Program-made: the position numbers and the translations under genes
Shown: positions 8,669 to 35,301 of the stretch, piece after piece
How the letters are laid out: each line of letters begins with the position of its first letter
Position numbering within the stretch: the stretch's first letter is position 1
DNA from: Clostridiaceae bacterium
Lineage (GTDB): Bacteria; Bacillota; Clostridia; Peptostreptococcales; Peptostreptococcaceae
Direction: 5' to 3'
Assembly (NCBI GenBank): GCA_902362365.1
Contig: CABIVQ010000031.1
Coordinates: forward strand, 1-35,301
Length of the DNA: 35,301 nucleotides
Notes under the pieces: model-generated
The model's input: the letters and a program-made list of their open reading frames with translations, nothing else
The model's database searches: none
What the model was told of the DNA's origin: nothing

Positions 8669-8672
8669 AAAC

Positions 8673-9044: not shown

Positions 9045-9074
9045 AGTTACTCCTTTCCTCTTCAAAGTACTAGC

Positions 9075-9104
9075 TGTATATACTCAGTGTATACTGTATA
9101 TACA
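9075..9104 (-). promoter_or_regulatory. Probable operator of the GntR regulator, overlapping the promoter
   Basis: Within 30 bases there are three GTATA-type units: TGTATATAC (9075-9083), GTGTATAC (9087-9094) and TGTATATACA (9095-9104). The outer arms TGTATA and TATACA form an inverted repeat. The block lies 31-60 bases before the regulator's ATG, where an autoregulatory site is expected. A weak promoter (TTGCGT at 9109-9114 with TACACT 17 bases on) would overlap it. Assignment is by position and symmetry only. Confidence 0.55.
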
Positions 9105-9153
9105 ATTTACGCAATATAATTATTTTACAACATATGTTAATTTATTATCTTTT

Positions 9154-9181
9154 TTGAACCATGTCTAAATTATGTTATAAT
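9154..9181 (+). promoter_or_regulatory. Sigma-A-type promoter of the NAD kinase gene
   Basis: TTGAAC (9154-9159), a 16-base spacer and TATAAT (9176-9181) lie 23 bases before the NAD kinase ATG. This is one of the best consensus promoters in the window, and it diverges from the GntR operon. Confidence 0.7.
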
Positions 9182-9204
9182 ACAAAGTATAAAGAGGTGG
9201 AAAG

Positions 9205-15662: not shown

Positions 15663-18600
15663 TTAACTATATTCAATTTTCACCTTAGATCCTGATCCTG
15701 CTTCACTTGATGTAACCAGTAATTTGATTGGTACCCTATTTTTCAATTCTTCAACATGACTTATTATACCTACACTTAATTTATCACTATGTAGCCTCTC
15801 GAGAGATTCCATAACAATATCTAAAAGCTCAGCGTCCAAAGATCCGAATCCTTCATCTAAGAAGAAGAATTCCAACGGAGCACTTCCCTTTAATTGAATT
15901 TGAGATGATAACGCAAGAGCTAATGATAATGAAGTCAAGAATGTTTCTCCTCCTGAAAGAGTATCTACACTCCTTCTTTCTCCCCCATTAAAATTATCTC
16001 TCATAACAAAGTTTAACTTTTGATCTATCTCTAGAGCATATCTTCCCTTTGTTATAGCTTCTAATCGTTTAGATGCTTCAAGAGCTATATATTTTAACTG
16101 ATTCGTTGCAACATATTCAACAAATCTATTACCTTGTATTGTTTTATCTAAATCATCTAGTAAATCTACTTTATGTTGAACTTTTCTCATATCTTTAGTA
16201 AGCTCTTTTATTTTTTCTAAAGAATCTTTTAAACTATTTAATATATTTTGTTTTGCTCCAATCTCTTTAGAAATTTCTCCAATCTCTACTCTTAAAACAT
16301 AAATATTATTTTTTAATTCATCAAATTCTTCCTTCTTAATTCTTCTCCCTGCTAGCTTTTGTTTTAAATCATCAATTTTATAAGTTAATAATTTTTGTTC
16401 TTCTTCATATTCTAAAATTTCTTCAGCTAATCTTTTCTTATGATCATATTCTAATAATGCTCTCTTTACAGCATAAATACTTTCAAATTTATTATCATTT
16501 AATAGTTGATTCAACGTTTGTTCTTGTATTTTATGGTGATCTTTTGCAGTATTTAATCTTCCTTCTATGCTTTTTTTGTCGCCTAGGCATTTTTCATACT
16601 CTATTCTTTGCCCTTCTAACTTATGCTTTAATTCATCTTCTAACCTTGTTATCTTTTCTGCATATGCTTCTAATTTACTTAGTAACTCCTTAGCAGATTC
16701 TCCTTTAGTTATAGATATAAAATCTCTATATTTCTCATCTCTAAATCTACATTTTTCAGAATATAACTCTCTCGCTTTTATAAGCTCTAATTCTATTTTA
16801 TGTATCTTATCATCTAATGCCTTAATTTCTAAGTCAGACTTTTCTTTTATAGCTATTATTTCTGAGTACTCTCTATTTAAATCTTCTATAATTTTTTCAT
16901 TGTGATTTATTTCATCTACTTTTGCACTTAGATTAGAAACCTTTACTATAGATTTTAATCCTAAATACTCATCCTTTAGTTTCTTATACTTTATATCTAT
17001 TTCTTCTAAGTATAACTTCATTTCTTTTATAGATTTTTTATAGCTATTTAATTCTTCTAATATCTTAATTTCATCCTTTTCAATTTTGCTTTTATCTTCT
17101 TTTAATTTACTTATTTTTTGTTCTAAAGATTCTTTTTCATCATTCCATTTTTGAACACTATTTTTTAATAACTCTAAAACTCTATTCTCTGATTCTAATT
17201 TAGATAAAATTTCATTAGATTTTAATTCCCCAATTTTACTATGAAGTTCATTTAATTCCTTTAATTTTATTTTCTCAGCTGAAATATACTCACCATTTTT
17301 TAAGTTTAAATCTTCAAGATTTAAGCGATAAAGTTTATCTACACCATTTAACTTTTCTAACTTACCTTTAAGAAAATCTATCTCATCATCCTTACTTAAA
17401 ATTTCAATCTTTTCATGATGTCTTGAACCACATACTGGACATGGCATATCTTCCTTTAATTCTCTTCTAAGTTCTAATGCTAGATTTAAATATTTTAATT
17501 TGTCTATTTCTTTTTCTAAATCACTAATTTCTTTTTTATTAACCTCTAGCTTTTCACTTAATACAGCCATTTCTCTGCTATTGTTGTATTTTTTTTCTAG
17601 AATAACACTTACTTCATCTTGTAGAGTGCTTATTTTAATTTCGCTTTCTTTAACTGAATTTGATTTACTTCTTAATTCTGCAATATATTCTGTCTTAGAT
17701 AATATTTCTTCATTACTACCTGGGCATTTTTTCATTAATGATTCATGAGAGCTAATTAAATCCTCTAACTTTGAAGTTATACTTACCCTATCTCTCTCTA
17801 TATATTTACTCTTTAAACTTAACTCTTCAGTTTCTTTTGATAAATTATTCAATTTATCTAGATTTTGCGACTTTTCTTCACTTAATTTCATATACTCTTT
17901 TTCATAATCATAAGCTAAAAATATTTTTTGTTTAAGATCTGCACTTATTTTTAACTTAACTAACTTTTCTTCTTTATCCTTTAAATTCTTAATTATTACA
18001 TCTCTATTACTTTCTATATCTTTTCTATAAATTTCAGATGTTTTCTTTTCTTTACTTAACTGAATGCCTCTTTCTTTCATTTCTTTTATTTCTTCATTTA
18101 TAATGTTTAATTCTTCTTCTATTTTTAATGCATTATTAAGTTTTTCTTTATGCTCCATAAGTCTTGGCATTTTTTCATCCTTGATCTTATAGGCCTCTTC
18201 ATATCTGTTCTTAGTTAATATAAGCTCTTGATTTAAAATTCCTAAATTTCGTTCTAATTCTTCTACTTTTAAAGAATCATCCTGTATTTTCTTTTCTAAC
18301 TCTTGAACTACATATATATTAGGATTAACTCTCTCAGCATTTTCTGCATTTTCTAACTGAACTTTTTTATCTTTAATGTCATTTTGCTTTAAATCTAATT
18401 CTTTTTTTCTAATTTCATATTTTTCTAACTTAGTTTGTTCTTCAAAAACTTCTTTGCTTTCCTCATATTTTTTTTGTGCTAAATCTAATTTCTCATGTTC
18501 TTCTTTTTCTCTTAATTTTAATACATCTAATTCCTTTGAAGTATTTTCATATACTTCTACACTAACACCTTCAAATTGGTTCATTTTAACATTTAAATCT

Positions 18601-19193
18601 CTTAATTCAAGATTTTGCTCATTTTTTCTTTTTCTAACCTTTTCTATAAGTCCTCTTCCATACTTTTCAAGGTTAAATATTCTTTCGAGCATATCTCTTC
18701 TATCAGAACCCGTAAGCTTTAAAAACTCATTAAATTTACCTTGAGGTAAAACAACAGATCTTGTAAAATCATTTGCTGTTAAACCTACAACTTGAGTTAT
18801 TTTATCATTTACATCCTTAGCTTTATCAGCTAGTATAATTTCAGTTCCATCATTTTGCTTTTCTATTAGTCTAGCATAAGTAGTTTTAGTTCCTCCAACC
18901 TTGCTTCGACCTATTATTCTACTTACTTCATATCTTCTTTTTGCATTTTTACTTCCTATTTCAAATTCATAATTTACTACTGCTTCCTTACAAGCACTAT
19001 TTATAAATTCTTTTGTATTTCTAGATATATTTCCATACATGGCTATAGTTATAGCATCTAAGATTGTAGATTTACCACTTCCCGTATTGCCAAATATACC
19101 AAATAGTCCTCTTTCTATTAGCTTATCAAACTCTATTGTTTGCTCATCTATATAACTATTTAATCCACTTACTGTTAGCTTAATTGGTCTCAT
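15663..19193 (-). CDS. sbcC: SbcC, ATPase subunit of the SbcCD nuclease (Rad50-like)
   Basis: SbcC is the SMC-like ATPase that, with SbcD, opens hairpins and trims blocked DNA ends. Walker A is at residues 35-43 (GNTGSGKST). Two long coiled-coil arms follow, meeting at the zinc hook CPVCG (Cys585 and Cys588), almost exactly mid-protein. Near the C-terminus come the signature TLSGGETFL and Walker B FFFLDEGFGSLD. Length (1176) is normal. Many weak frames on the other strand are shadows of the Lys/Glu-rich coiled coil. Its ATG overlaps the end of sbcD by 14 bases, and it is the last gene of the seven-gene DNA-end-processing run. Confidence 0.96.
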   Translation of the reverse strand: MRPIKLTVSGLNSYIDEQTIEFDKLIERGLFGIFGNTGSGKSTILDAITIAMYGNISRNTKEFINSACKEAVVNYEFEIGSKNAKRRYEVSRIIGRSKVGGTKTTYARLIEKQNDGTEIILADKAKDVNDKITQVVGLTANDFTRSVVLPQGKFNEFLKLTGSDRRDMLERIFNLEKYGRGLIEKVRKRKNEQNLELRDLNVKMNQFEGVSVEVYENTSKELDVLKLREKEEHEKLDLAQKKYEESKEVFEEQTKLEKYEIRKKELDLKQNDIKDKKVQLENAENAERVNPNIYVVQELEKKIQDDSLKVEELERNLGILNQELILTKNRYEEAYKIKDEKMPRLMEHKEKLNNALKIEEELNIINEEIKEMKERGIQLSKEKKTSEIYRKDIESNRDVIIKNLKDKEEKLVKLKISADLKQKIFLAYDYEKEYMKLSEEKSQNLDKLNNLSKETEELSLKSKYIERDRVSITSKLEDLISSHESLMKKCPGSNEEILSKTEYIAELRSKSNSVKESEIKISTLQDEVSVILEKKYNNSREMAVLSEKLEVNKKEISDLEKEIDKLKYLNLALELRRELKEDMPCPVCGSRHHEKIEILSKDDEIDFLKGKLEKLNGVDKLYRLNLEDLNLKNGEYISAEKIKLKELNELHSKIGELKSNEILSKLESENRVLELLKNSVQKWNDEKESLEQKISKLKEDKSKIEKDEIKILEELNSYKKSIKEMKLYLEEIDIKYKKLKDEYLGLKSIVKVSNLSAKVDEINHNEKIIEDLNREYSEIIAIKEKSDLEIKALDDKIHKIELELIKARELYSEKCRFRDEKYRDFISITKGESAKELLSKLEAYAEKITRLEDELKHKLEGQRIEYEKCLGDKKSIEGRLNTAKDHHKIQEQTLNQLLNDNKFESIYAVKRALLEYDHKKRLAEEILEYEEEQKLLTYKIDDLKQKLAGRRIKKEEFDELKNNIYVLRVEIGEISKEIGAKQNILNSLKDSLEKIKELTKDMRKVQHKVDLLDDLDKTIQGNRFVEYVATNQLKYIALEASKRLEAITKGRYALEIDQKLNFVMRDNFNGGERRSVDTLSGGETFLTSLSLALALSSQIQLKGSAPLEFFFLDEGFGSLDAELLDIVMESLERLHSDKLSVGIISHVEELKNRVPIKLLVTSSEAGSGSKVKIEYS

Positions 19194-20394
19194 CTTCTAA
19201 ATCACCTTCTTCGCTTATTATATCTAAGAATAAATCCATAAGTTCTCCACGAGGGTCAAGTCCTGTACTAAATTGATAAAACTCTTTAAATAATTCCCCC
19301 ATGGATTTTTCATTTATATCTATTTCTTCTTCATTATATTCAGAAGTTATAATCGGCCTAATTTCTATAATATCATCTAGTAATTCCTTCATTTTTTTTA
19401 TTTCTGATTGACTTATTACATGTTCTGTTTTTATTTCAAAATAAGACCATATATTTCTATCTCGATTATCCTCACAAATTTTAATAGCTTCTTCTATGCC
19501 ATTGCATTTAAAGACTTCTATTGATTTATAATTTTTAAAATATATGCTTTGAATTATTGGACTTTCTCCAGCTTTTAAATCAACTATATTTGCTCCCTTT
19601 GCATAGCTTCTCTCATCCTTACTATATTGTAATGGTGAACCAGAGTAATAAGCATTCAATCTATGTGATGCTTTTTGTGGTTTATGTAAATGTCCTAATG
19701 CTATATACTGTGCTTTAGTAGGTAAGTCTTTCTTTTCTACTAATAAACTACCTCCAAGTTGTATAGGTCTTTCTGAATCTGTACCCTCTCCTCCTACAAC
19801 GAAAATATGAGATACAGCTATGTTTATTGTATCTTCTTCAAAATTTTCTTCTAGTTCTCTGAATAATTCTCCAACCCTCTCTGAGTAAGTTTTCTGTGCT
19901 TCTTCATCATTACTAGGATTTCCAATTGCCTCATTTAGTCTTTTTTCACTTGGATAAGGAAGTGTAATTATAGTTGCCTTCTCACCTTTAATTTCTACTT
20001 TTAAGCAACCTTCCTTTGCTTCTAGAATTTCAAACCCCTCATATTTTGCTTTTTCTGTAGAACTTAAAGGATATCCTAATACTATTATCCCTTGCTCATG
20101 TGCAAGAGGTGTAATTGCAGCTAGCCTTTCTGGATTGTCATGGTTTCCAGAAATAATTAGCACACATCTTTCACCATTATTTGCTAGCCTTGATACAGTT
20201 TTATAAAATAATTTTTCTGCTTGAGCAGGGGGATTAGATGTATCATATATATCTCCTGCTATTATAATCATATCTATATCATTATCATTTACTAGCTTTA
20301 CAAAATCATCGCAAAACTGTTCCTGCTCTTCAAGCCTTGAGTGGCCATCTAGGCTTTTGCCTAGATGCCAATCTGATGTATGAATAAATTTCAT
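19180..20394 (-). CDS. sbcD: SbcD, nuclease subunit of SbcCD (Mre11-like)
   Basis: This manganese-dependent 3'-5' exonuclease and endonuclease partners SbcC. The metallophosphoesterase motifs are complete: SDWHLG with Asp8 and His10, AGDIYDT, SGNHDNPERL, VSHIFV and LGHLHKPQ. A C-terminal capping and SbcC-binding region takes up residues about 280-404. Length (404) is typical. A GGAGG sits before the ATG, which lies 25 bases after the addA stop. The 14-base overlap with sbcC indicates translational coupling. Confidence 0.96.
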   Translation of the reverse strand: MKFIHTSDWHLGKSLDGHSRLEEQEQFCDDFVKLVNDNDIDMIIIAGDIYDTSNPPAQAEKLFYKTVSRLANNGERCVLIISGNHDNPERLAAITPLAHEQGIIVLGYPLSSTEKAKYEGFEILEAKEGCLKVEIKGEKATIITLPYPSEKRLNEAIGNPSNDEEAQKTYSERVGELFRELEENFEEDTINIAVSHIFVVGGEGTDSERPIQLGGSLLVEKKDLPTKAQYIALGHLHKPQKASHRLNAYYSGSPLQYSKDERSYAKGANIVDLKAGESPIIQSIYFKNYKSIEVFKCNGIEEAIKICEDNRDRNIWSYFEIKTEHVISQSEIKKMKELLDDIIEIRPIITSEYNEEEIDINEKSMGELFKEFYQFSTGLDPRGELMDLFLDIISEEGDLEDETN

Positions 20395-20419: not shown

Positions 20420-23400
20420 TTAATAATATAAAGCTTCATCTATACCAAATAAGTAAATACATTTCTCTTTAACATTCTTACCAGTAAGCCTTTCTAAAGC
20501 TTCTGAGTATAATTCTAATTGTTTTTTATATTTATTTACTACATCTACTTTATTTTCTTCATTTACAAAGTCTGTTTTATAATCAACTAATACTATTTCT
20601 CCATTTTCTTCAAAATAAGCATCTATTATACCTCTCAGCATTAATGTTTCTTTATCATAAACATTATTGTCTTCATGTAATAAATCTTCATAAATGTATA
20701 CATCCGCCATTCTTACTTGAGTATAAATAGCTTGTTCTCTTTTTATAAAATCAGAGTTAAGCATCCTTTGTCCTATACTTGATTTAAAGAATTTATATAT
20801 CTTAAATGGATTTATAACTACTGACTGTTTTTCACTTATTATTCCTTTTTTAATAAATCCCTCTATTTGCTCTTTTATCTCGTATATATTATTTACCTTA
20901 TCTAAATCTAGTACTTGCATTATTAAATGAACTATAGTACCTCTCTCAGCACCACTTATTTTACTTTTTTCTTGAGTTTCTTGAATAAATAGTGGTTTTT
21001 TTAATACTGTTCTTTGATTAAATAAACTTTGAGAGAAATCTTCCTCATGAGTATTTTGTATTTTCTTAATTTCTGTAACTGATATACTTGCTGGTTTAGT
21101 CACACTAAATTTGTATGGATACTCATAATTTAACTTTTCCTTTATGTCTTCATAATAATCTGTACTTGCCTCGTTTAGATCTATATTTTCTAATATTTCT
21201 TCGATACTATCTTCTACGACCTCTCCTTTCGTTTCCAGAAGAATATCTTCCTTGTTCCAAAGCTTTGCATTCCACTTTGATGGATGATCTTCTATGTGTG
21301 TTACATTTACGTTAATACTTTCTCTTACATTTTCTAAATCTCTATGCTTTAATACAGATGGCATTATCCAATCTAAGAAATTTTTACCTTTTAATATATC
21401 ATATTGAGATATTGTTTTTGAACCATCTAAGTTAGATGACCATTTCTTTACACTATCCTCTATTTTTTTAGTTGACCCTGTTATTATTAGCTTTTCTTTT
21501 GGTCTAGTAAATGCAACATATAATACCCTCATTTCTTCTGATAAATTTTCTATATTTATTTTGTTTTTCAAGGCTTCCTTAGCTATACTAGGGAAGGAGA
21601 TTCTTCTTTCAAAGTCTACAAGTTGAGGTCCATATCCTAATGAGTGATGATAAAGTATATTTTTCTTAAAATCCTGAGTATTAAAGTTTTTGCCCATACC
21701 ACTACAAATGACTACAGGGAACTCTAGTCCTTTACTTTTATGTATACTCATTATTCTAACTACATCAGCATTTTCACCAAGAGTTTTGGCACTTCCCATA
21801 TCTGTATTAGATTTTTTTAATTTACTTATAAAGTTTATAAAATTAAATATTCCTTTGAAACTTGTTTCTTCAAATTGCTTTGCTCTTTCGAATAAGATTT
21901 TCAAGTTTGCTTGTCTTTGACTTCCTCCAGGCAATGCACCTACATATGCATAGTAACCTGTTTTAGTGTATAAATACCATAAAAATTCATCTGTACTCAT
22001 GTATAAAGACTTTTCCTTAAAATCTCTTAATTTTGCCAAGAAAATCTGAGCTTTCCTTATATTACTGTCTTCTGGCATTATAGAAGTATCTATTATCTTA
22101 TTAACATCCATTCCTTTACTAGAATCAGTGTAATTTATATCTTGATTTTCAGGTTCAATATTAATTTGTCCAAACTCATTAAAATCACTAAAGAAACTAA
22201 ATTCACTAATATCTCTAATAGAATCTATATCTTCTAATTCTGAGTATGCTTGTCTTAATTCTATACTCACTTCATTGTTATCTTCATCTTCAAAACCATC
22301 TACACTTACTTCTAACACTCTTTCATAAGCAAAGTCCTCTAAAGCTTCATAGAAACTTTTCTCTTTATCTTCTAATCTTATATCTATAAGCTCTTCTGGA
22401 GTAAAACCAAACATAGGGGATTTTAATACTGCTAGCAGCGGAATATCTTGAAGAGGATTATCTATAATTTGAAGAAGTGACATTATAGTCTTTATTTCTA
22501 TAGTATCAAAGTATCCTACTCCAATATCAGCGTAAGTAGGTATGTCCATATTCATAAGTTCATCTGCAAAAACTGGTGCCCATGCTGAAGTTGCTCTAAG
22601 AAGTATTACTATATCTTTAAATTTAACTTCTCTATATGCATCTAGTTTTTTATCATAAACCATTTGAACTTTGCCATCTTCTTTTGGTGTCATCAAGTCC
22701 TTTATTATTTTCCCAACCATCCTTGCTTCAAGTTGAATATTATCAATTTCCTCTTCATCTTGTCTTTCTTCAGAATTTTCTTCTAAGTCTTCTACTTTAC
22801 TTTTTTGAATTATATGTATTTCAGTAGGTCCTCCCACTATAGCATTTTCATTATCATTTTCTTTAAAAGTGGCACCTAAGTTTAATCTTTCCTTTTCTGT
22901 ATACTCTATTTCACCTATATTTTTACTCATTATATTTTCGAAAATATAATTGGCAGAGTCTAATACCTCCGCTCTACTTCTAAAATTCTTATATAGCATT
23001 ATTTTTCTATATAAACTACCTTCCGTTATTCCATACGTTTCATATTTTTCTTGAAAAATTTCTGGCTTTGCTTGTCTAAATCTATATATACTTTGTTTAA
23101 CATCTCCAACCATAAATCTATTTGGAGTTTCTATTTTGGCAATAGTACTTAGTAATACTTCTTGTACTAAATTACTATCTTGATACTCATCTATAAATAT
23201 TTCATAAAACTTGTCTCTATATGCTAAAGCTACATCTGATGGTATAGAATTTCCATGCTCATCAGTTAGTATCTTTCCATCTTCATCTCGCTCTGTTAAT
23301 ATTCTTAATGCGAAATGTTCTATATCATTAAAATCTATAATTCCTTTTTCTCTTTTTCTTTTAGAATATTCTTCTTCAAACTTTACTATTGTACTAGATA

Positions 23401-24439
23401 TAGACTTTACTATAGGATAAAGATATTTTATTTCTTCTTTTATACTATCTGAATCCTTGTAAAAACTACTTTGTATAATATCCTCTAGAGATTTTTTAGC
23501 TTTATCTCTTATACTTTTTGCCTTATCTTTTGCTTCTTTTATATATATAGGTGCATCTTTGGGTATTCTTTTTACACCTTTTACATAATTTTCAAAGCAC
23601 ATAGATGACATTGCTCTATAAGCTTCATCCCACGATGTACTACAAGCATTTAATAAATCTTTCACTCTTAAATACTCTAATTTTAATTTATCTGTAAAAG
23701 TTTCTAGCTCTATTATATCTTCTACTTCTTCTAAAGCTTTTTTCATACTAACTTCTATACCACTTACTTCTATTCTTACAGTATCTAATATAGATTTAGC
23801 CCATGCTGAATTTTTAAATTTAAAGTCTTCATCTATATTAAAATCTTCTGCAGATTTAATTAACCATTCTTCTGGATAAGGAGATGCCATTGCAAAAGAG
23901 TATATACTAAGAATGATATTTTGCAGTTCATTATCTCCTCTTTTTTCTGCATAACTTTCTACTAAATTTAAAAACCCTTGATCTTTAGATTTATAAAGTT
24001 CTTCAAATACGTCTTCTAAAGCTTCACTCTTAAGTATTGTACATTCTGTCGTGTCTCCTATTCTAAAGTTAGGATCTAAATTTATTTTATGGAAGTTTGA
24101 TTTTATAACTTCTAAACAAAATGAGTGTATTGTTGTTATACTTGCTTTATTTAGTAATATAAGTTGGTTTTGTAAATGAGTATTTTCAGGATTTTTATCT
24201 AGGGCTTTACCTATAGCATCTCCTACCCTTTCTCGCATCTCTGATGCAGCTGCATTAGTAAATGTAACTACAAGTAATTTATCTATATCAATTGGATTTT
24301 CTTTTTCAGTTATCATCTGTATTATACGCTCAACAAGTACTGCCGTTTTTCCCGATCCTGCAGCAGCTGCTACTAGTAGATTAGAATTTCTACTATCTAT
24401 AACTGATTGCTGTTCTACTGTCCATTTAGGAGAACTCAT
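20420..24439 (-). CDS. addA: AddA, helicase-nuclease subunit of AddAB
   Basis: AddA is the 3'-5' motor and one of two nucleases of the complex that resects double-strand breaks for RecA and degrades linear DNA. The protein shows the Q-motif WTVEQQ, Walker A at residues 25-32 (AAAGSGKT), Walker B in IFIDEYQDSN, the motif V region IMSIHKSKGLEFPVVI, and motif VI LYVAFTRPKEKL. A C-terminal PD-(D/E)XK nuclease is present with RGIIDAYF and VLVDYKTDF. At 1339 residues it is slightly longer than the Bacillus protein. Its ATG overlaps the addB stop by one base (TAATG), with AAGGGAGAG before it, so the two are translationally coupled. Confidence 0.96.
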   Translation of the reverse strand: MSSPKWTVEQQSVIDSRNSNLLVAAAAGSGKTAVLVERIIQMITEKENPIDIDKLLVVTFTNAAASEMRERVGDAIGKALDKNPENTHLQNQLILLNKASITTIHSFCLEVIKSNFHKINLDPNFRIGDTTECTILKSEALEDVFEELYKSKDQGFLNLVESYAEKRGDNELQNIILSIYSFAMASPYPEEWLIKSAEDFNIDEDFKFKNSAWAKSILDTVRIEVSGIEVSMKKALEEVEDIIELETFTDKLKLEYLRVKDLLNACSTSWDEAYRAMSSMCFENYVKGVKRIPKDAPIYIKEAKDKAKSIRDKAKKSLEDIIQSSFYKDSDSIKEEIKYLYPIVKSISSTIVKFEEEYSKRKREKGIIDFNDIEHFALRILTERDEDGKILTDEHGNSIPSDVALAYRDKFYEIFIDEYQDSNLVQEVLLSTIAKIETPNRFMVGDVKQSIYRFRQAKPEIFQEKYETYGITEGSLYRKIMLYKNFRSRAEVLDSANYIFENIMSKNIGEIEYTEKERLNLGATFKENDNENAIVGGPTEIHIIQKSKVEDLEENSEERQDEEEIDNIQLEARMVGKIIKDLMTPKEDGKVQMVYDKKLDAYREVKFKDIVILLRATSAWAPVFADELMNMDIPTYADIGVGYFDTIEIKTIMSLLQIIDNPLQDIPLLAVLKSPMFGFTPEELIDIRLEDKEKSFYEALEDFAYERVLEVSVDGFEDEDNNEVSIELRQAYSELEDIDSIRDISEFSFFSDFNEFGQINIEPENQDINYTDSSKGMDVNKIIDTSIMPEDSNIRKAQIFLAKLRDFKEKSLYMSTDEFLWYLYTKTGYYAYVGALPGGSQRQANLKILFERAKQFEETSFKGIFNFINFISKLKKSNTDMGSAKTLGENADVVRIMSIHKSKGLEFPVVICSGMGKNFNTQDFKKNILYHHSLGYGPQLVDFERRISFPSIAKEALKNKINIENLSEEMRVLYVAFTRPKEKLIITGSTKKIEDSVKKWSSNLDGSKTISQYDILKGKNFLDWIMPSVLKHRDLENVRESINVNVTHIEDHPSKWNAKLWNKEDILLETKGEVVEDSIEEILENIDLNEASTDYYEDIKEKLNYEYPYKFSVTKPASISVTEIKKIQNTHEEDFSQSLFNQRTVLKKPLFIQETQEKSKISGAERGTIVHLIMQVLDLDKVNNIYEIKEQIEGFIKKGIISEKQSVVINPFKIYKFFKSSIGQRMLNSDFIKREQAIYTQVRMADVYIYEDLLHEDNNVYDKETLMLRGIIDAYFEENGEIVLVDYKTDFVNEENKVDVVNKYKKQLELYSEALERLTGKNVKEKCIYLFGIDEALYY

Positions 24440-27400
24440 TACTTTATCTCTCCCTTCATTAACTTAATAACTTCATCATTATCTTTATTATTTAAAATTC
24501 TATATTTATTTTCCTTCATTGTAGTGTCAAACTGACAAATAGCTGAATAACTACAGAAGTCACAAGAAGTTCCATTTTTATTTTTATATGGGTCTATATT
24601 AATATTTCCACTAACCATTTCCCCACATAAATTTTTGACTGTACTTTTTACATAATTTCTAAGTACATCAAATTCTTCATAACTTACACCATTAGTATTT
24701 TTACCTATACCTCCATCCTTAGTTAGGTTAGCAGGTATTACTAAAGATGACTTTCTTTCTCCATCTGCCAAAGACTTATCCATCTCTTTTATGATATGAG
24801 CATCTTTTATTATTAAACCTTTCATCCTCATATCTTTAAGTATAGCCTCTCTAACTTCTTCATCATCTTTATCTTCGTTAAATTTAGCTATAGGATTATC
24901 AATTCTACAATATAAAATTGCTGCTGGATTTAAATTACCATCTCCTCTATTTGCACTTTCAAGTATTGCATCTAAATAAACTAATAATTGTAATTGAAGA
25001 CCGTAATACACATCACTTAAACTTATAGATTTATTTCCAGACTTATAATCTACTATTCTTATATACTTATCTTCATTTTCTTCAAATTCATCTACTCTAT
25101 CGATTTTTCCTATTAAGTTTATTTCATCACCATTATCTAAAACTAATTTTATTGGTGGATATTTTCCATTAAATCCAAACTCAACTTCATAATCAATTGG
25201 TTCAAATGACCCTTGCTTTATTTGCTCTGCAATCACATTTAGTGCAGCAACTAGCATATTTTTTAATCTAAATGCTAGATACTTATATCTTTCAGAACTA
25301 TTCAGTATATACCCAGGTATTTTATCGACTATTTCATCAACTAATATAGATACTTTATCTTGTATATATTTAATATCTACATCCTTCCACTGTAAGTTAT
25401 CTTTTGAAAGAGATTTTGAAAAGTTTTCTAGTATATTATGTATAAAGTTTCCTAAGTCAGGAGCTGTAAAAGAGTACTCTTTTCTTTCCTTTGCCTTTAG
25501 TCCATATTGAATAAAATATGCAAATGGGCATTGTGCGTACTTTTCAACTCTAGACACACTTAATAAACTATTTTGGTATAGTTTTTTAATCTTTTCTTCT
25601 TCTACCTTGCTTACTTGATTTGTATAATTAAGTCCTGATATAACTTTTTTAGATATATAGCTATATTCATTATCTTGAATAAAATATCTATATACATCTA
25701 ACCAAATATCTTTTATCTCTTTTCTATCTTCAAAATCTTTTATTGCATTTATTAGATTATTAAATGTAGGTGCTTTAACTGTTATTTTTCTTAATATTTC
25801 TTCATTAGTCATATCTTCTTCATCTATTAGATAACTTATATTGCTTATATTGGGGAAGATTTTCTTTAATCTAGATACTATAACAGATGGCCTTAAAGTT
25901 TTTCCTTCATGATCTGATATAGGATAAGTAACTATTAAATTTTCACTAGTAGATGTAAGAGCTTTATATACTAAAAACTGCTCTTCAAATGTTTTAGTTT
26001 TACTATCTATATCAACTTCTACACCTTTTTCTCCTAAACTTTCTCTATCATTATCACTTAATAAACCATTATCTTTTGCTATAAGTGGAAAAATACCATC
26101 AGTTGTACCTATTAAATAAAGGTATTTAGTATTTGAATTTTTCATCCTATCTACACTACTTACAAGAACTTGGTCAATACTTGGTGGAACTAATCCTAAT
26201 TCATATTCATCAAATCCTAAACTTATAAGTCTTATAAATTCTTCTAAGGATTTTTTTTCATCTCCCATAATCTCAACCATTTGATCAAGAATATCTACTA
26301 CTATATCCCAAACTTGAGAGTACTGATTTGCAATATCTAGTTCACCCTTATCTTTAAAATTAAAGATTAATTTTTCAATAGTATTAGGCATGTCTATATC
26401 TAATAAAAATTCATATACATATTGGCATAACTCTTGAACTGTTTTTTTACCAACCAGCTTATTTTGAAGCTTAATTATTGGTGATATTACTCTACTCTTT
26501 ATTTCGTTTATTCTCTCTTTTAAAGATATCTCATAATCACTTTCTTCTATATTATAATTGCCATTTATTCTATAATTCCATTTTTCTTCAAACCATTTCT
26601 TTCCTCTTATTCCATTGGCAAGCACATAGTTTTCAAGTAAACTTATGTCATCATTATCAATTCCTATAAGACCACTTTTTAAGTATCTAAACATAGTCTC
26701 ATAGCTATATCTTCTATTTTTCATTTCTAGTGCAGATATAATTAAAACTATTATTGGATTACTTTTAGCTTCTCTTTTTTTATCTATAAAGTTTGGTATG
26801 TTATACTCATTAAAAATAGAGTGAACTAAAAAATCATATCTATTTAAGTCTCTAGTTGCTATCGTTATATCTTTATACCTAACTTTTTTATCCCTTACTA
26901 GGTGTACTATTTCTCTTGCTATTTCTTCTACTTCAGAATATGAGTTATTAAATTCTTTTATATGTATATTCTTAGTTTCTTCTTCATAAACTTTATATGG
27001 ATAAGCACTATAATATCGTTCTAAATGATGTAATTCTTTATTACCTTTAAACCTCTGTATAGTCCCATTATTTAAGTTTATTGGCTTGTCTATTTTTACG
27101 CCTTCTTCTAATGCTAACCTACTTAGTCTCTCGTAAGTAAATTTAGTTCTTGAGAAAGAATCTGTTTTGTTATATGAGAAGTTTGCTACACTATCTACTG
27201 TAAGAGACATGTTTACTTCTTTGGCCTTGTGCAATATACTTCTTAATACTCTATACTGATTAGGTGTAAAACCAGTAAACTCATCTATATAAATATAACA
27301 TCCATCAAAATATGAACAAGCTTCAATTTTATCAGCTAGTAAATTAAGCATATCTTGAGAATCTACATATTTTTCATGTAATTTATTTTCAAAGGCCTCA

Positions 27401-27894
27401 TATATTTTACTTATATCTTTTAACTTTAATCCTAAAGTTTCATTTTCAACGTCAGAACTTATATGTTCTAGCATCTCTGGAGTTACATTATATTGTTTAA
27501 ATTCAGCTATCATTTCCGATACAGAAGTTATAAATCCTGGTTGTGTTGCTGATTTTGAAAATATATTTAATTCTTTCGCTACACTTTCTATTGCATTACT
27601 CGTAATCATAGCTTTCCCACTAGCATTTACATTGACATTCGTTAATCCGCCTACATGAGAAAAGACTATATTACTCATAGTCTTAAAACTCAATACTCTT
27701 GTTCTTAAAAACTTATCTTTTTCACTGCCTGAGAATAAGTTACTCATTCTTCTTTCCATTTCAAAGGTATATTGTTCTGGAACTAGCATTATTATCGGCG
27801 TTATTTCATTCTCTTGAGCTTTTTTCTTTATCTCTTCTAGTATATATGTAGATTTTCCGCTGCCTCCTCTACCTAATATAAACTTAAGTCCCAT
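24439..27894 (-). CDS. addB: AddB, helicase-fold/nuclease subunit of AddAB with iron-sulfur site
   Basis: This partner of AddA scans for Chi and cuts the 5'-ended strand. It begins with a P-loop (LGRGGSGKST, residues 7-16), has a degenerate helicase middle, and ends in a PD-(D/E)XK nuclease with DYK at 949-951. The four iron-sulfur cysteines are present: Cys789 (AQCPFAYF) and Cys1111, Cys1114, Cys1120 (CDFCSYSAIC). The 1151 residues match the family. GTAGGAGGT precedes the ATG. It lies 14 bases after the small nuclease gene's stop, so the canonical pair is placed downstream of the split AddAB-like trio in one run. Confidence 0.96.
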   Translation of the reverse strand: MGLKFILGRGGSGKSTYILEEIKKKAQENEITPIIMLVPEQYTFEMERRMSNLFSGSEKDKFLRTRVLSFKTMSNIVFSHVGGLTNVNVNASGKAMITSNAIESVAKELNIFSKSATQPGFITSVSEMIAEFKQYNVTPEMLEHISSDVENETLGLKLKDISKIYEAFENKLHEKYVDSQDMLNLLADKIEACSYFDGCYIYIDEFTGFTPNQYRVLRSILHKAKEVNMSLTVDSVANFSYNKTDSFSRTKFTYERLSRLALEEGVKIDKPINLNNGTIQRFKGNKELHHLERYYSAYPYKVYEEETKNIHIKEFNNSYSEVEEIAREIVHLVRDKKVRYKDITIATRDLNRYDFLVHSIFNEYNIPNFIDKKREAKSNPIIVLIISALEMKNRRYSYETMFRYLKSGLIGIDNDDISLLENYVLANGIRGKKWFEEKWNYRINGNYNIEESDYEISLKERINEIKSRVISPIIKLQNKLVGKKTVQELCQYVYEFLLDIDMPNTIEKLIFNFKDKGELDIANQYSQVWDIVVDILDQMVEIMGDEKKSLEEFIRLISLGFDEYELGLVPPSIDQVLVSSVDRMKNSNTKYLYLIGTTDGIFPLIAKDNGLLSDNDRESLGEKGVEVDIDSKTKTFEEQFLVYKALTSTSENLIVTYPISDHEGKTLRPSVIVSRLKKIFPNISNISYLIDEEDMTNEEILRKITVKAPTFNNLINAIKDFEDRKEIKDIWLDVYRYFIQDNEYSYISKKVISGLNYTNQVSKVEEEKIKKLYQNSLLSVSRVEKYAQCPFAYFIQYGLKAKERKEYSFTAPDLGNFIHNILENFSKSLSKDNLQWKDVDIKYIQDKVSILVDEIVDKIPGYILNSSERYKYLAFRLKNMLVAALNVIAEQIKQGSFEPIDYEVEFGFNGKYPPIKLVLDNGDEINLIGKIDRVDEFEENEDKYIRIVDYKSGNKSISLSDVYYGLQLQLLVYLDAILESANRGDGNLNPAAILYCRIDNPIAKFNEDKDDEEVREAILKDMRMKGLIIKDAHIIKEMDKSLADGERKSSLVIPANLTKDGGIGKNTNGVSYEEFDVLRNYVKSTVKNLCGEMVSGNINIDPYKNKNGTSCDFCSYSAICQFDTTMKENKYRILNNKDNDEVIKLMKGEIK

Positions 27895-27908: not shown

Positions 27909-28631
27909 TTAGTTATTGCAAAGCTTATTAAATTCACAATAACTGCAATGTTTTTCATTCTTTTCTATATTTATATCACCATCAGATCCTTCGTATCTTG
28001 TTCTTTTTATAAGATCTATATATTCATTTATTTTTTTCTTATAATTTTCATGTTTTTCATCACTATAAGTTATAGTTATAGGTTCTTCATCAAACTCTGG
28101 CTGATAGTAATTCATTCTTATATCTTCAGTTTTTACATCTATATTTAATAACTTCGGTATAACTTCTTTTGCTAACACAAGATACACCATCGTTTGCATT
28201 CTTGCTTCTACATTTTTATAAATTATTTGTTTCGATTCAGTTTTCCAATCCCATATATCTATGGTATTTTTTCCTATCACAACTAAATCATACTTTGCTT
28301 GTATTTCATTACCATTTAATATGCATCTTACTTCATATTCTGATATATATTCTTTTTCATTAACTACTGGTATTATTTTTTTTATTCGCTCCATCCATTT
28401 ATTAAACTTTTCATTTTCAATTTTCCCTAATGGAATATTACTGAAATATCTTTCACATAATAAGTGAAACTCTCGTCCTAATTTTAAACTTTGATAATAT
28501 TCTTCTGATGTAAAGTCATCATATTTCCAATTTATATTATCAATATATTTATACTTAAATTTAATGGGACATGATTTATATGTATTTATAGAATTTTGGC
28601 TATAGCGAAAATGTTTTAAATTATTATTCAC
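27909..28631 (-). CDS. Small iron-sulfur PD-(D/E)XK nuclease, AddB C-terminal/Cas4-like
   Basis: The 240-residue protein is a free-standing nuclease domain with all expected residues: His56 (GREFHLLCERY), Asp115 (AKYDLVV) and Asp128-x-Lys130 (WDWKTES). Four cysteines bracket the domain: Cys21 (YKSCPIKF) and Cys229, Cys232, Cys238 (CSYCEFNKLC). The C-x2-C-x5-C spacing is identical to AddB of this window, implying a [4Fe-4S] cluster. No CRISPR array or cas gene is nearby, so an AddB-like role fits better than Cas4. The start is GTG at 28631, five bases after the helicase stop. It likely supplies the nuclease missing from the two upstream proteins. Confidence 0.85.
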   Translation of the reverse strand: MNNNLKHFRYSQNSINTYKSCPIKFKYKYIDNINWKYDDFTSEEYYQSLKLGREFHLLCERYFSNIPLGKIENEKFNKWMERIKKIIPVVNEKEYISEYEVRCILNGNEIQAKYDLVVIGKNTIDIWDWKTESKQIIYKNVEARMQTMVYLVLAKEVIPKLLNIDVKTEDIRMNYYQPEFDEEPITITYSDEKHENYKKKINEYIDLIKRTRYEGSDGDINIEKNEKHCSYCEFNKLCNN

Positions 28632-28636
28632 TTAAA

Positions 28637-30844
28637 TCACTTCCCTCTTTTTTGATTTATATGTTGGCTTAGTCTTAGTAAATAAATACACGGATTTTGT
28701 TTTTTCTTTATATTACCTACATCATTTTCATCCTTATAATCGCTAAAAGACATTATTAACATTTCTTTTGCTCTAGTTATACCAACATATAACAATCTTA
28801 TTTTCTCATTTATCACATCAATTTTAGTTTGGTATTCATAATTAATTCCATTATACCCATATACAATAGAATCAATTTCTTTTTTTATAATTGCTTCAGG
28901 ATTTTTGTATTTTTCCTTTAAGTACCATTTATCGCATTGAAATTTTTGATTTATATTATCCGGGAAATTAAAATCAGTTAATCCTAATAAGAATACACAA
29001 TCCCATTCTAAACCTTTTGATTTATGGTAATTACATAAAGTTATACTTCCAGGAGTAGGCTCATACCCATTTATTTCATATACAACTTCTATTATATGGG
29101 AAAATACCTTATTTTTAGTATCTACTATGATATCGTATACATCTTGTAATTTCATATACATATTTTCTGATACTAAAAACTTAACATAAAAAGATACGTA
29201 ATGAACTATAGCACTGTCTTCATTTTCTAGCTTTAATTTTTCTCCTATAAATAATATAAACGTATCTAACCTTACAATAGGATATTCTAAAATTTCTTTT
29301 ATAGCATTTACTCCATATTTGAATCCTTTGTATACATCACTATCTAAATCTATGATTAAATTATTTTGTATATCTTTATTATAAATAAGCTCTTCTGTCG
29401 TATAATTTTTTAACATCTCGATAAAATCTTTTTTACCTTGATTATTATCAGTATGTATAAAAACTTTATCTAATACAGTAATAAGCTTATTAATATCATC
29501 ACAACTTAAAATAAAATCTATTATGTACGCTATACTATTTAAAGTTTTTCTTTTATTCGATGAATTTGGTCCTAACTCCTCAAACTCCAAACCTTCTTTT
29601 TCTAGTTCTCTACCTACTTGAATTACATGATCATTAAAAGGTACTAAGATACCTATACTTTTATCTGGGTACTTTTTCTTAATATTTTTTGTAAACCTAA
29701 TAGTTTTACTTATTTCATCCTTCCAAGTTTCATATTTTATTGCATTGATATTATATGTACTAGGTTCTGGATTTTCTTTATAACCTTTATTTTTAGGTAC
29801 CGTTCTTACCTTCATATCTTCTAAAGCTTCTCTACATTCAATTTGATCAAAATCCTTAGTTACATATACTACTAATTCATTCGCTAAATCCAATATATCC
29901 TTAGAACTTCTATTTGACATATCCATTCTATAGCAATAATCAGCATTCTCAATAAACTCTTTAAAATACTTTGGATCTGCAGAAGAAAAAGTTCCTGTTA
30001 TACTTTGATTTATATCTCCAACTCTAACTAAGTTATTATTCTTTTCGCATATTAATTTAATTATCTTACCTTGTATCTCATTTGAATCTTGGCATTCATC
30101 TTCAAAAATATATTTATACTTATTTTGAAATTTACTTTTTAAATCTTCATCAATAGTTAATGCCTTATATCCTAATACTAAGATATCATCATAGTCTAAC
30201 ATTCCTTGCTGCTTTAATTTTCTATCATATTCTTTATAAATCGGAAGTACAATTCTAAGCATTCCTTTATAATCACTAGATATATTATCTTCTAACTTAT
30301 CTGGAGTTATATCTTTATATTTTAATTCACTTATAGCTTTTCCTATTAAATCATAAAAACCTCTATCCCAATTTTCTAGGCTTATATCTCTCCAACGCTC
30401 ACTTTTTTGCTCTTTTAAGAAAAAATTAAATATTCTTTCTCCGCCATTAATTCTATATTTATTTATACATTCAGTAAGTATAATACTTTTTTGTAGATCA
30501 TCAGCTATATTAAACTCTTCATTTAACATTATTATTTCTGGTTTTTCTTTTATTATCTTAACAGCTAAACTATGTATAGTCATAACTTCATATGAGCTAT
30601 TTTCTTTTATGTTTTTATCCTCTAATATTTTTTTTATTCTTCCTTTAAAGTTATTAACAGCGCTATTCATATAAGTAAGAATCAGAATTTTCCCCTTATC
30701 ATTTAAATTTTCTTCTAATAGTTTTGCAACCAAATTTGTAACAATAAAAGTTTTTCCTGCACCAGGTACTGCTGGAACTGCCATAGTTCCCGAAGTATAA
30801 TTTATTATGGGTATTTGATCTTCTCTATAGTTGATTTTACTCAT
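28637..30844 (-). CDS. UvrD/AddA-like superfamily 1 helicase without nuclease domain
   Basis: A complete SF1A motor of 735 residues. It has the Q-motif YREDQIPI with Gln10, Walker A at residues 25-32 (AVPGAGKT), and motif Ia ILILTYMNSAVNNF. Motif II is FEDECQDS with Asp249-Glu250, motif III is VRVGDINQSI, motif V is LCNYHKSKGLEWDCVFLLG and motif VI is LLYVGITRAKEML. It lacks the C-terminal nuclease of AddA and ends at UvrD length. The P-loop variant and Walker A position mirror AddA. Its ATG overlaps the stop of the AddB-like gene by eight bases. AAGGGGGGA lies before the ATG. It is probably the motor of the split AddAB-like trio. A PcrA/UvrD repair helicase is less likely given the neighbours. 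Confidence 0.85.
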   Translation of the reverse strand: MSKINYREDQIPIINYTSGTMAVPAVPGAGKTFIVTNLVAKLLEENLNDKGKILILTYMNSAVNNFKGRIKKILEDKNIKENSSYEVMTIHSLAVKIIKEKPEIIMLNEEFNIADDLQKSIILTECINKYRINGGERIFNFFLKEQKSERWRDISLENWDRGFYDLIGKAISELKYKDITPDKLEDNISSDYKGMLRIVLPIYKEYDRKLKQQGMLDYDDILVLGYKALTIDEDLKSKFQNKYKYIFEDECQDSNEIQGKIIKLICEKNNNLVRVGDINQSITGTFSSADPKYFKEFIENADYCYRMDMSNRSSKDILDLANELVVYVTKDFDQIECREALEDMKVRTVPKNKGYKENPEPSTYNINAIKYETWKDEISKTIRFTKNIKKKYPDKSIGILVPFNDHVIQVGRELEKEGLEFEELGPNSSNKRKTLNSIAYIIDFILSCDDINKLITVLDKVFIHTDNNQGKKDFIEMLKNYTTEELIYNKDIQNNLIIDLDSDVYKGFKYGVNAIKEILEYPIVRLDTFILFIGEKLKLENEDSAIVHYVSFYVKFLVSENMYMKLQDVYDIIVDTKNKVFSHIIEVVYEINGYEPTPGSITLCNYHKSKGLEWDCVFLLGLTDFNFPDNINQKFQCDKWYLKEKYKNPEAIIKKEIDSIVYGYNGINYEYQTKIDVINEKIRLLYVGITRAKEMLIMSFSDYKDENDVGNIKKKQNPCIYLLRLSQHINQKRGK

Positions 30845-32747
30845 AAGATTTTCCCCCCTTATCTAAAAGCTTTAGTAAGAGGCTATACAATATACTTTCT
30901 TGCATATATCCATTTACCGTATAGTCACTCTTATATGCATATACCTTTTCAGCATTTTCTAATAAGCAATATATCATATTATATAAATAGTACTTTTTAA
31001 AACGTTCTTCCATTTCATCTGTATATATTCTAGTTTCTTCATAAGACTTCCTAAGTACTATCACATTGCTTATATCCTTTTCTATTTTCATATTCCATGT
31101 ATTGCTACCTATATCAATCCATAATTGAATACTCCTATTTAAGCTCGATGAAATATAAGAATACGGTGTTGATATTATTATTTTATTAGATTCTTTTAAA
31201 TCTTGTATTTCCTTAGCTACATAATAGTCTTTAATAGTACTTTTAAGCACTTCTATAAATATTTTTTCCTTAGATTTATTTTCATCCAAGCTTAATAAAT
31301 TTATATTTTCAGTAAAGACTTCACTCTCCTGTATAATTTTCCTACATATCCTTATATTTGATTTTCCATTTTTTAATATAAGCATCTTATCTACATAAAA
31401 TCTCATTAAAAATTCATATATTTTTATACTTTCTAATTTATATCTATGTATATATTCAATTAATTCTTTATACTCTTCATTACTATCTTTATTTCTATAA
31501 ATTTTAAATGCCTGTATTCTATTTACATTCAGTACAGTTTCTATGAAACTTATAAATTCTTCTTCCTTTATTAAATCTTCATAATCATAAAATATACATG
31601 TAGCTACTACTAAAGCATTTGCAAAAGGATAGTCTACTATTTTATTATCTATTTTTGTATTTACTACACCTATGTTATATCTTTCTAATACATTCTTAAC
31701 TTGATAATCTAAAATAGTATTATTTATGGGTGAAATTATAACAATATCTTTCGGAGCTACACCTTTATTTACTAACTCTATAACTTTATTTATAACTTCT
31801 TCAATCATTTCACTGTATAATTGACTAGACTGATTTAATTCTATATCATACTTTTGCAAATATAAATCTGATATATCTATATTATTATACAAATCTTCGG
31901 CATTATTTCTTTCAACTAAAGTAAATTTTTTTATTATTTTCTCATCTATATATTCCATATCTATATTATTAAATGATGAGTAATCTCTAGTTTTATTGAA
32001 GCAAACGTAACTCTCTTTAGCAAAAGAAGATATTACGTCTATAAAATCCACCTCAGCATTACTACAACTCTCTAAACTATCTACAATAATATAATCTATA
32101 TCTTTTTTTAGGTTATTTATATAAGTTTCATCAGATAATAAATATTTATTATATAAGTAGATACAAAGAGGGCTATCTAGCATCGATCTTGATATAAGGC
32201 TATCTACATAATGAGTTATAATTTCTGTCATTTGAGAATAAGAAAACTTTAAAAGTCTATCCTTATTTTTTTTCGATAAATATAGCCTTTCCCCTATAGT
32301 TTCAAATTCTATTAAACTTAACGCTGCTTTATTTATATTTGTATTAATACTATTTACTATACCTTTATTAGTACTAGTTATATCATCAAAGTAACCATGA
32401 GAGTTCCTTTTTATTTTTACATCTGTACTTATAATATAATCACTTAAACTATTTGATATAAATATTGGAGCAATTGTATTACTTTTTATTTTTTCTTCCT
32501 TTTCAACGATAATAGGCCAATACTTTATTAGCTCTTTTTTTACAAAGCTTATATATGTAGTTATTTTTAATTCCTCGCTGTATTCTAGGCTTATTTCTCT
32601 CTCATATATTAATTTATTTATGTTATTTTGAACTAGTAAAATTATATTTTTTGATCTATTATTATTTAACTTTATTAATTTTAAATATGTATCTAAAACT
32701 TTTTTATTTTTTTCATTTTGACTCTTTACATTATATAAAAGTTTCAT
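30837..32747 (-). CDS. AddB-like helicase-fold protein with lost P-loop
   Basis: At first sight this 636-residue protein is unrecognisable, but it aligns with the N-terminal two thirds of AddB in this window. NIILLVQNNINKLIYEREI matches PIIMLVPEQYTFEMERRM. LYSEMIEEVINKVIELVNKG followed by APKDIVIISP matches SYSEVEEIAREIVHLVRDKK followed by VRYKDITIATR. YIIVDSLES takes the Walker B place of YIYIDEF. Where AddB has GRGGSGKST this protein has VKSQNEKNK, so ATP binding by the P-loop is not expected. There is no nuclease domain or Cys set. It probably acts as the scaffold or DNA-scanning half of a complex with the next two gene products. AAAAGGTGA precedes the ATG. Confidence 0.7.
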   Translation of the reverse strand: MKLLYNVKSQNEKNKKVLDTYLKLIKLNNNRSKNIILLVQNNINKLIYEREISLEYSEELKITTYISFVKKELIKYWPIIVEKEEKIKSNTIAPIFISNSLSDYIISTDVKIKRNSHGYFDDITSTNKGIVNSINTNINKAALSLIEFETIGERLYLSKKNKDRLLKFSYSQMTEIITHYVDSLISRSMLDSPLCIYLYNKYLLSDETYINNLKKDIDYIIVDSLESCSNAEVDFIDVISSFAKESYVCFNKTRDYSSFNNIDMEYIDEKIIKKFTLVERNNAEDLYNNIDISDLYLQKYDIELNQSSQLYSEMIEEVINKVIELVNKGVAPKDIVIISPINNTILDYQVKNVLERYNIGVVNTKIDNKIVDYPFANALVVATCIFYDYEDLIKEEEFISFIETVLNVNRIQAFKIYRNKDSNEEYKELIEYIHRYKLESIKIYEFLMRFYVDKMLILKNGKSNIRICRKIIQESEVFTENINLLSLDENKSKEKIFIEVLKSTIKDYYVAKEIQDLKESNKIIISTPYSYISSSLNRSIQLWIDIGSNTWNMKIEKDISNVIVLRKSYEETRIYTDEMEERFKKYYLYNMIYCLLENAEKVYAYKSDYTVNGYMQESILYSLLLKLLDKGGKSYE

Positions 32748-33153: not shown

Positions 33154-33600
33154 TTAAACCTTAAATTTATTCATTATTTTTTTAGTAATACTACCCAAAA
33201 GTACAAGCGAAATATTTATTATCATTAATACGATTGGATAGGCAATAGTTATATCTTCAAAAAATATCCTTACTAAAGACATGGTTGGCATAAAATACGG
33301 TGTAATTAACCAAAGAGCTGATTGTGAATTACCTAATATTAAGTCTGTATATAATGCAAAGAATAGTAAAAATAATCCCATACCGCACCCTATAAGTCCT
33401 ACTACTATCGCTTCTCTTATATTAAGGTCATTAGTGATCCCGATATAAAAGTTAACCCCAAAATATCCAACTAAAAATATAAACCCTATTGAAAGAGTAA
33501 TATAATTTAAGGGTACTATTGTAAAGTATACACTTGAGACTATACATATAATTAAGGTTATGAAAAATATTTTTTCTCCAGTATGAAATATTTTTTCCAT
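33154..33600 (-). CDS. Four-helix membrane protein, unknown function
   Basis: The 148 residues contain four or five hydrophobic segments (about 12-30, 33-52, 64-84 and 118-138, perhaps one at 95-105) with short loops and a basic C-terminal end (KKIMNKFKV). GAGGTGATAG precedes the ATG, a strong ribosome site. It is the first gene after the 5S rRNA, about 90 bases away on the same strand. It could be reached by read-through from the rRNA operon or by an AT-rich promoter in that gap that I could not fix. The family is not recognised. Confidence 0.65.
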   Translation of the reverse strand: MEKIFHTGEKIFFITLIICIVSSVYFTIVPLNYITLSIGFIFLVGYFGVNFYIGITNDLNIREAIVVGLIGCGMGLFLLFFALYTDLILGNSQSALWLITPYFMPTMSLVRIFFEDITIAYPIVLMIINISLVLLGSITKKIMNKFKV

Positions 33601-33689: not shown

Positions 33690-33808
<119 letters not shown>

Positions 33809-33816
33809 ATCTTATT

Positions 33817-33890
33817 TGGAGCGGGTGAAGGGGATCGAACCCTCACAGCCGGCTTGGAAGGCCGGAACTCTACCATTGAGCTACACCCGC
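33817..33890 (-). tRNA. tRNA-Gly (anticodon UCC)
   Basis: The minus strand folds into a complete cloverleaf. The acceptor arm is GCGGGTG with CACCCGC. The D-arm has TAGCTCAATGGTAGAG. The anticodon loop CTTCCAA has TCC complementary to 33856-33858, and the T-loop contains GGTTCGATCC. CCA is encoded (33817-33819). It sits between 23S and 5S, only about eight bases from the 5S 5' end, so it is processed from the rRNA precursor. Confidence 0.97.
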
Positions 33891-33951
33891 ATATATTTAG
33901 AGTTAATACTCTAAAAACTGCATATCATTTGTGTTTTAATCATTTAAATTT

Positions 33952-35301
<1,350 letters not shown>

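Follow-up and report, generated by a model that had tools for sequence, protein, structure and literature searches.

The 35,301-nucleotide stretch of DNA analysed here (contig CABIVQ010000031.1 of a Clostridiaceae bacterium in the Peptostreptococcaceae, hereafter the window) carries, directly upstream of addBA, three genes whose products are termed X636, H735 and N240, and whose relatives in other genomes are termed X, H and N. These products are probably the three subunits of one ATP-driven enzyme for the resection of DNA ends that resembles AddAB (a probability of about 0.68), and it is by analogy with AddAB that we infer its assembly, polarity, strand choice and role. The tight packing described in the initial annotation of this DNA was confirmed: the X636 and H735 genes overlap by 8 bases, and a gap of 5 bases separates H735 from N240.

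Each of the three proteins corresponds to one module of such an enzyme. H735 gives strong matches to the N and C domains of UvrD in Pfam, and the core motif residues of superfamily 1A (SF1A) helicases are invariant in all 15 aligned rows of H, the window included; its 3'-to-5' polarity is presumed from membership of the UvrD family. The C-terminal nuclease that accompanies the SF1A motor in AddA is missing, as no PDDEXK or other nuclease domain was found in H735. The initial annotation of H735 as an AddA- or UvrD-like motor lacking a nuclease therefore holds for the intact UvrD motor and the missing nuclease, but not for the likeness to AddA, which is outscored by the PcrA, Rep and GajB models. 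Indeed H735 falls well under the cut-offs for AddA (122 bits against addA_Gpos, cut-off 708), RecB (93.5 bits, cut-off 696), PcrA and Rep, with PcrA as its top NCBIfam score and GajB as its top PADLOC score. N240 had been proposed to be an iron–sulfur (Fe-S) nuclease of the AddB type, and this is borne out by a predicted fold that resembles the AdnA and AddB nucleases on structure comparison and by the presence of the Fe-S cysteines; it is thus a PD-(D/E)XK nuclease with the PF12705-type Fe-S fold that is also seen in the Cas4 and ACE1 nucleases. It is encoded by a separate open reading frame (ORF) in the window, as is N in the 88 loci where gene order was assessed. X636 has the fold of an SF1 helicase but is motor-dead and lacks a P-loop, and its predicted structure resembles the inactive-helicase half of AddB, which places it as an inactive helicase-fold subunit of the AddB type.

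Unwinding by AddAB is the work of one SF1A motor, with the 3' strand scanned by the inactive helicase fold; of the two nucleases, that of AddB degrades the 5' strand and that of AddA cuts the 3' strand up to the encounter with Chi (PMC4824097, in part). By analogy, X636 would act as scaffold and as the channel for the 3' strand, a role that falls to the N-terminal half of AddB and of RecC, H735 would be the single 3'-to-5' motor, and N240, if placed like the nuclease of AddB or AdnA, would cut the 5'-ended strand and leave 3' single strands for RecA. Since the trio comprises a motor, an inactive helicase fold and an AddB-type nuclease but no AddA nuclease, it is predicted to generate 3' tails independently of Chi: the outcome would be resection rather than destruction of both strands, and Chi would not be needed to spare the 3' strand. 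Where RecJ is co-encoded, it could extend the loss of the 5' strand.

The conservation of the trio was surveyed in 93 loci with X (L026 to L040 having been left out), and the gene order X-H-N was found in 88. Three of the other five (L009, L013 and L068) lie at contig ends and one (L111) is a lone X, so that order could not be assessed in these four; the fifth, L110, has the same order but failed the order rule through over-long, overlapping ORFs. Failure of the three genes to co-occur across genomes had been named at the outset as a result that would count against a joint machine, and instead a fixed order was observed. This conservation bears on a rival explanation, namely that H735 and N240 are separate repair enzymes (acting, for example, with RecJ at stalled forks or gaps), that X636 is only a regulator, and that no AddAB-like complex is formed. 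It draws on the higher scores of PcrA, Rep and GajB over AddA for H, on the statement that RecJ and UvrD act at stalled forks (PMC10653904, in part) and on the lone X of L111, a P-loop protein annotated as UvrD-helicase domain-containing on an Ilyobacter polytropus plasmid (NC_014633), with neither H nor N within ~7 kb. Against it, X has stayed next to H and N, in unchanged order, in 88/93 loci, and the combination of inactive helicase fold, active motor and Fe-S nuclease is the plan of AddAB (PMC4824097, in part); this alternative is quite improbable.

Three kinds of locus can be distinguished by what follows the trio. The addB gene lies directly after N in 38 loci, at a spacing of -53 to +59 bases; a RecJ-like gene follows N in 31 (within -133 to +109 bases in 29 of them, and at 675 and 751 in the remaining two), identified by DHH, DHHA1 and RecJ_OB domains in two loci and by similarity in the rest; and neither is in reach in 24, some of which are at contig ends. 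A scan of species genomes yielded 25 loci, with X and H in all of them, N in 24 and addB in 22, the missing genes being explained by contig ends. The P-loop of X, judged by pattern, is absent in 38/38 addB-linked loci (the N terminus of X can be aligned in 29 of these) and present in 30/30 recJ-linked loci with an alignable N terminus and in 20/24 of the others; the four exceptions are L103 and three loci of the window's clade that lie at contig ends (L009, L013 and L014). A search of proteins with an alignment of P-loop X as query produced 13 matches, 11 of them strong, with Anaerosolibacter the sole genus named. The catalytic residues of the partners are largely retained beside addB, with Walker A of H in 38/38 loci, DExQD in 38/38, the motif VI pattern in 37/38 and the D-x-K of N in 37/38. 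The Fe-S triad of N is found in 32/38 addB-linked, 31/31 recJ-linked and 18/18 other loci (N of at least 200 residues), and its N-terminal cysteine pattern in 32/38, 23/31 and 17/18, respectively. An independent case is provided by plasmid pSR56 of Salinibacter ruber M8 (Rhodothermota), where a hypothetical protein (X, with P-loop), an ATP-dependent helicase, a PD-(D/E)XK nuclease and recJ are encoded together.

X was sought in genome samples drawn from the order, the class and the phylum to which the Peptostreptococcaceae genome G001 belongs (the phylum being taken as Bacillota). It was found in 65/297 genomes of the order at E up to 1e-3, in 27/391 of the class at 1e-8, eight of which have only 33-45 bits, and in 28/398 of the phylum at 1e-20. 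Two matches in the order (G102, G130) and the two inspected among the eight low-scoring class matches (G503, G441) proved to be UvrD/PcrA-like proteins and were rejected as X. A further check in which 10/10 genomes had X used known carriers and is uninformative on frequency. The closest named protein to X636 is from Romboutsia (74%), so the source of the window is probably related to that genus.

In a tree of H, the addB-linked loci lie on one side of a branch with a Shimodaira–Hasegawa-like approximate likelihood ratio (SH-aLRT) of 100, so that loss of the P-loop needs only one change. When the tree was rooted with PcrA-like proteins, the addB-linked clade was nested inside the P-loop loci, and recJ linkage appeared in two distant parts; from this nesting, the free or recJ-linked P-loop trio was probably ancestral and the addBA-linked form of the window derived, although both trees are quick ones and long branches (L112, L088, L106 and the outgroup) make the root unsure. 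The widespread form would thus have a P-loop in X and often RecJ, and the lineage of the window would have the trio upstream of addBA with the P-loop of X lost. P-loop loss could not be separated from addBA linkage, as both changes fall on one branch.

Outside the addB-linked clade, the trio often occurs where AddAB was not found. Among 23 genomes of the order and class that have the P-loop trio and show no addB linkage (in G470 linkage is hidden, the trio meeting a contig end after H and addB lying near the start of another contig), AddB and AddA were over the cut-off in 10, weak and divergent in two and not found in 11. No RecB over the cut-off was found in the 15 genomes tested, which include these 11. 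A PDDEXK_1 survey of the 11 gave the trio's own N as the only frame in six (G243, G207, G143, G136, G480, G090); the other five have additional frames of 169-597 residues, none of AddA or AddB size. In the phylum sample, 4/28 X-positive genomes (G001, G815 weakly, G939 and G1005) gave an AddB match, versus 247/370 X-negative genomes (p 5e-8, kinship ignored); with the centre genome removed, 3/27 X-positive genomes did so (p 1e-8, kinship ignored). Absences in the class and phylum searches are provisional, at most two candidates having been scored per genome; for 49 X-positive genomes (23 + 26) all AddB candidates were scored. Seven genomes with no AddB match (G841, G889, G718, G243, G239, G563, G090) each have almost all of their sequence in a single contig, which argues against assembly gaps as the explanation there. 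The initial view of a second machine beside addBA is thus apt for the window's clade, Clostridioides included, but elsewhere the trio is apparently resident where AddAB is missing. A broader proposal is that X-H-N, in an ancestral four-gene form that includes RecJ, represents an additional class of resection machine alongside RecBCD, AddAB and AdnAB. It would behave as if permanently Chi-switched, would take the place of AddAB across a broad range of Bacillota, and would survive in Clostridioides and its kin as a backup that makes the SOS-inducing single strands when AddAB is lacking; in our judgement this proposal stands at even odds.

Several observations weigh against the reading of the trio as an AddAB-like resection enzyme. 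The resemblance of X636 to AddB is one of fold: UvrD and PcrA structures outscore AddB as its structural matches, the profile match to AddB has a probability of only 28%, and identification as AddB by sequence was rejected, as BLASTP against AddB was not significant and there was no family match (none to TIGR02773 or PF21445 up to E 1, none to ADDB_N in a Pfam scan). The initial description of X636 as an AddB-like scaffold without a P-loop hence stands for its fold and its missing P-loop, but UvrD and PcrA are the better match. The Fe-S cysteines are missing from N in six addB-linked loci, and the N-terminal cysteine pattern missed 8/31 recJ-linked N. AddAB coexists with the P-loop trio in 10/23 genomes of the order and class, and with the trio in all 38 addB-linked loci. 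No AddB match was made in 123/370 X-negative phylum genomes either, and the class sample showed a weak difference, with AddB lacking in 3/10 genomes with the P-loop trio versus 29/381 others (p 0.04, kinship ignored). Two of the 11 genomes without an AddAB match, G563 (C1:922719) and G612 (C1:214655), each have a UvrD frame of ~1600 residues with no PDDEXK_1 match, perhaps a further large helicase fusion. Lastly, a 7.25-kb addAB deletion in Clostridioides difficile 630 delta-erm made cells 1000-fold more sensitive to UV light and metronidazole (PMC6344619, in part), meaning that the trio is at best a partial substitute for AddAB in that organism.

The same deletion strain retained SOS filamentation, and its authors inferred the action of another exonuclease and suggested RecJ (PMC6344619, in part). 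Loci L006, L010 and L023 of Clostridioides have the trio immediately upstream of addBA, and from the size of the deletion we infer that it should spare the trio, the loci read being these rather than that of strain 630; the trio is therefore a candidate for the nuclease inferred from SOS-proficient addAB deletions in Clostridioides. It might alternatively be an accessory of AddAB in the addBA-linked clade, its products joining or modulating the AddAB complex. The spacing of N and addB in 38/38 such loci and the absence of the X P-loop throughout the clade by one change on the tree speak for this; yet the trio is present in many genomes where AddB was not found, its motor and nuclease residues are mostly intact beside addBA, and, with P-loop loss and linkage on a single branch, a connection between them is indistinguishable from coincidence. 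We regard an accessory role as very doubtful. The six loci whose N lacks the Fe-S cysteines (L053, L054 and L078-L081) keep the Walker motifs of H and have a diverged X, whose scores with the X model are 65-240 bits or lower; in these loci, drift beside addBA has gone one stage further.

Both repair and degradation of invading DNA had been suggested as roles, and the neighbourhoods scanned favour the former. That the trio and RecJ serve mainly in defence by degrading the DNA of incoming plasmids or phages, in the manner of Gabija or of the Cas4-like set associated with cyanobacterial Argonaute, is unlikely. GajA was not among eight window proteins scanned with Pfam, and none of 20 neighbour proteins in six relatives that lack addB linkage was of a known defence type; neither these 20 nor the window neighbours include cas or ago genes. 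Carriage by mobile elements was looked for and is at most rare: one P-loop X query had no match in 50,697 phage records, two IMG/VR pattern scans gave no relative, and X occurs in only 2/72,556 plasmid records. Scarcity of AddB alongside X is also not expected of a defence system.

In the window, the minus-strand run continues from the trio through addBA to an sbcD-like and an sbcC-like gene (Table 1), with intergenic gaps of at most 25 bases. Upstream of X636 (33154-33600) is a gene for a 148-residue protein that belongs to no Pfam family and is hydrophobic by eye; a counterpart is found in 13/25 related loci at 42-61% identity. It is preceded (33690-35301) by genes for 5S ribosomal RNA (rRNA), tRNA-Gly and the 3' portion of 23S rRNA that are co-oriented with the operon, and several related contigs break off no more than a few kilobases upstream of X. 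Control by a LexA box was rejected, the sole match to the LexA pattern lying inside rRNA, with a chance expectation of 0.9. In other loci, a 230-residue calcineurin-like phosphoesterase abuts X upstream (L075, L077), a SprT-like gene stands behind N (L044, L045), and in L071 alone X and H are set apart by 1.4 kb (7833-9265) that contain small ORFs on either strand. X is split across two reading frames in L019 (Faecalimicrobium dakarense), L108 and L109, through sequencing error or decay. In L068-L074 no ATG, GTG or TTG was found at normal spacing after the GGAGG site of X (7/7 loci), and an in-frame ATT, ATC or ATA stands there instead (read by eye), which suggests a rare start codon for X in this clade.

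Table 1. Genes of the minus-strand run in the window
Feature	Position	Strand	Description
X636	30837..32747	-	AddB/RecC-like inactive SF1 helicase-fold subunit; P-loop absent; degenerate Walker B (IVDSLES)
H735	28637..30844	-	UvrD-family SF1A motor; PGAGKT, DECQD, GDINQSI, HKSKG, YVGITRA; without nuclease domain
N240	27909..28631	-	Stand-alone Fe-S PD-(D/E)XK nuclease, AddB/AdnA type; D115, D128-x-K130, C21, C229, C232, C238
addB, normal AddB subunit	24439..27894	-	14 bases downstream of N240; TIGR02773 over cut-off
addA, normal AddA subunit	20420..24439	-	TIGR02785 over cut-off
sbcD-like nuclease gene	19180..20394	-	25 bases after addA; Metallophos, SbcD_C
sbcC-like ATPase gene	15663..19193	-	Overlaps sbcD; AAA_23, SbcC_Walker_B

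A survey in 2005 inferred that still-unknown presynaptic systems exist in bacteria without RecBCD or AddAB (PMC1193525, in part). The X-H-N operon, beside recJ or addBA, is a named candidate for such end processing as well as for the C. difficile nuclease. As a kind, helicase–nucleases are known; the subunit plan and the distribution seen here, by contrast, appear undescribed in the open-licence full-text literature searched, in which no description of the trio was recognised. The initial statement that no system of such composition had been characterised is consistent with this, but is qualified by the closest report, a predicted operon of unfused UvrD and Cas4-like genes, mostly in Clostridiales, for which the authors suggested a function in repair in place of one in defence (Hudaiberdiev et al. 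2017, PMC5704561, in part). That operon probably includes the H-N pair, although section 8 of that paper mentions neither X, RecJ nor a relation to AddAB. The cyanobacterial Argonaute-associated set comprises a Cas4-like nuclease (ACE1), UvrD and RecJcy, with no mention of an X-like subunit in the portion of that source available. Gabija was rejected as an identity, for H735 matches GajB models but no GajA is adjacent, the neighbours in the window being addBA and sbcDC.

The trio differs from RecBCD, whose RecC is the nearest counterpart, in having no RecD-like motor, and no RecB over the cut-off accompanied it in the genomes tested. AdnA and AdnB of mycobacterial AdnAB each carry a nuclease domain; the trio has one nuclease, on its own ORF, and so lacks the two motor–nuclease fusions of AdnAB. 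It differs from AddAB in consisting of three polypeptides rather than two, in having no AddA-type nuclease domain, in an H that is far under the AddA cut-off and an X without an ADDB_N match, and in often occurring where AddB was not found. With AddAB it shares one active SF1A motor, one inactive helicase-fold subunit and an AddB-type Fe-S PD-(D/E)XK nuclease; outside the window's clade most relatives of X also keep a P-loop in this inactive fold. The trio offers a natural dissection of AddAB, in which motor, nuclease and inactive scaffold are separable subunits and one lineage shows the loss of the scaffold P-loop.
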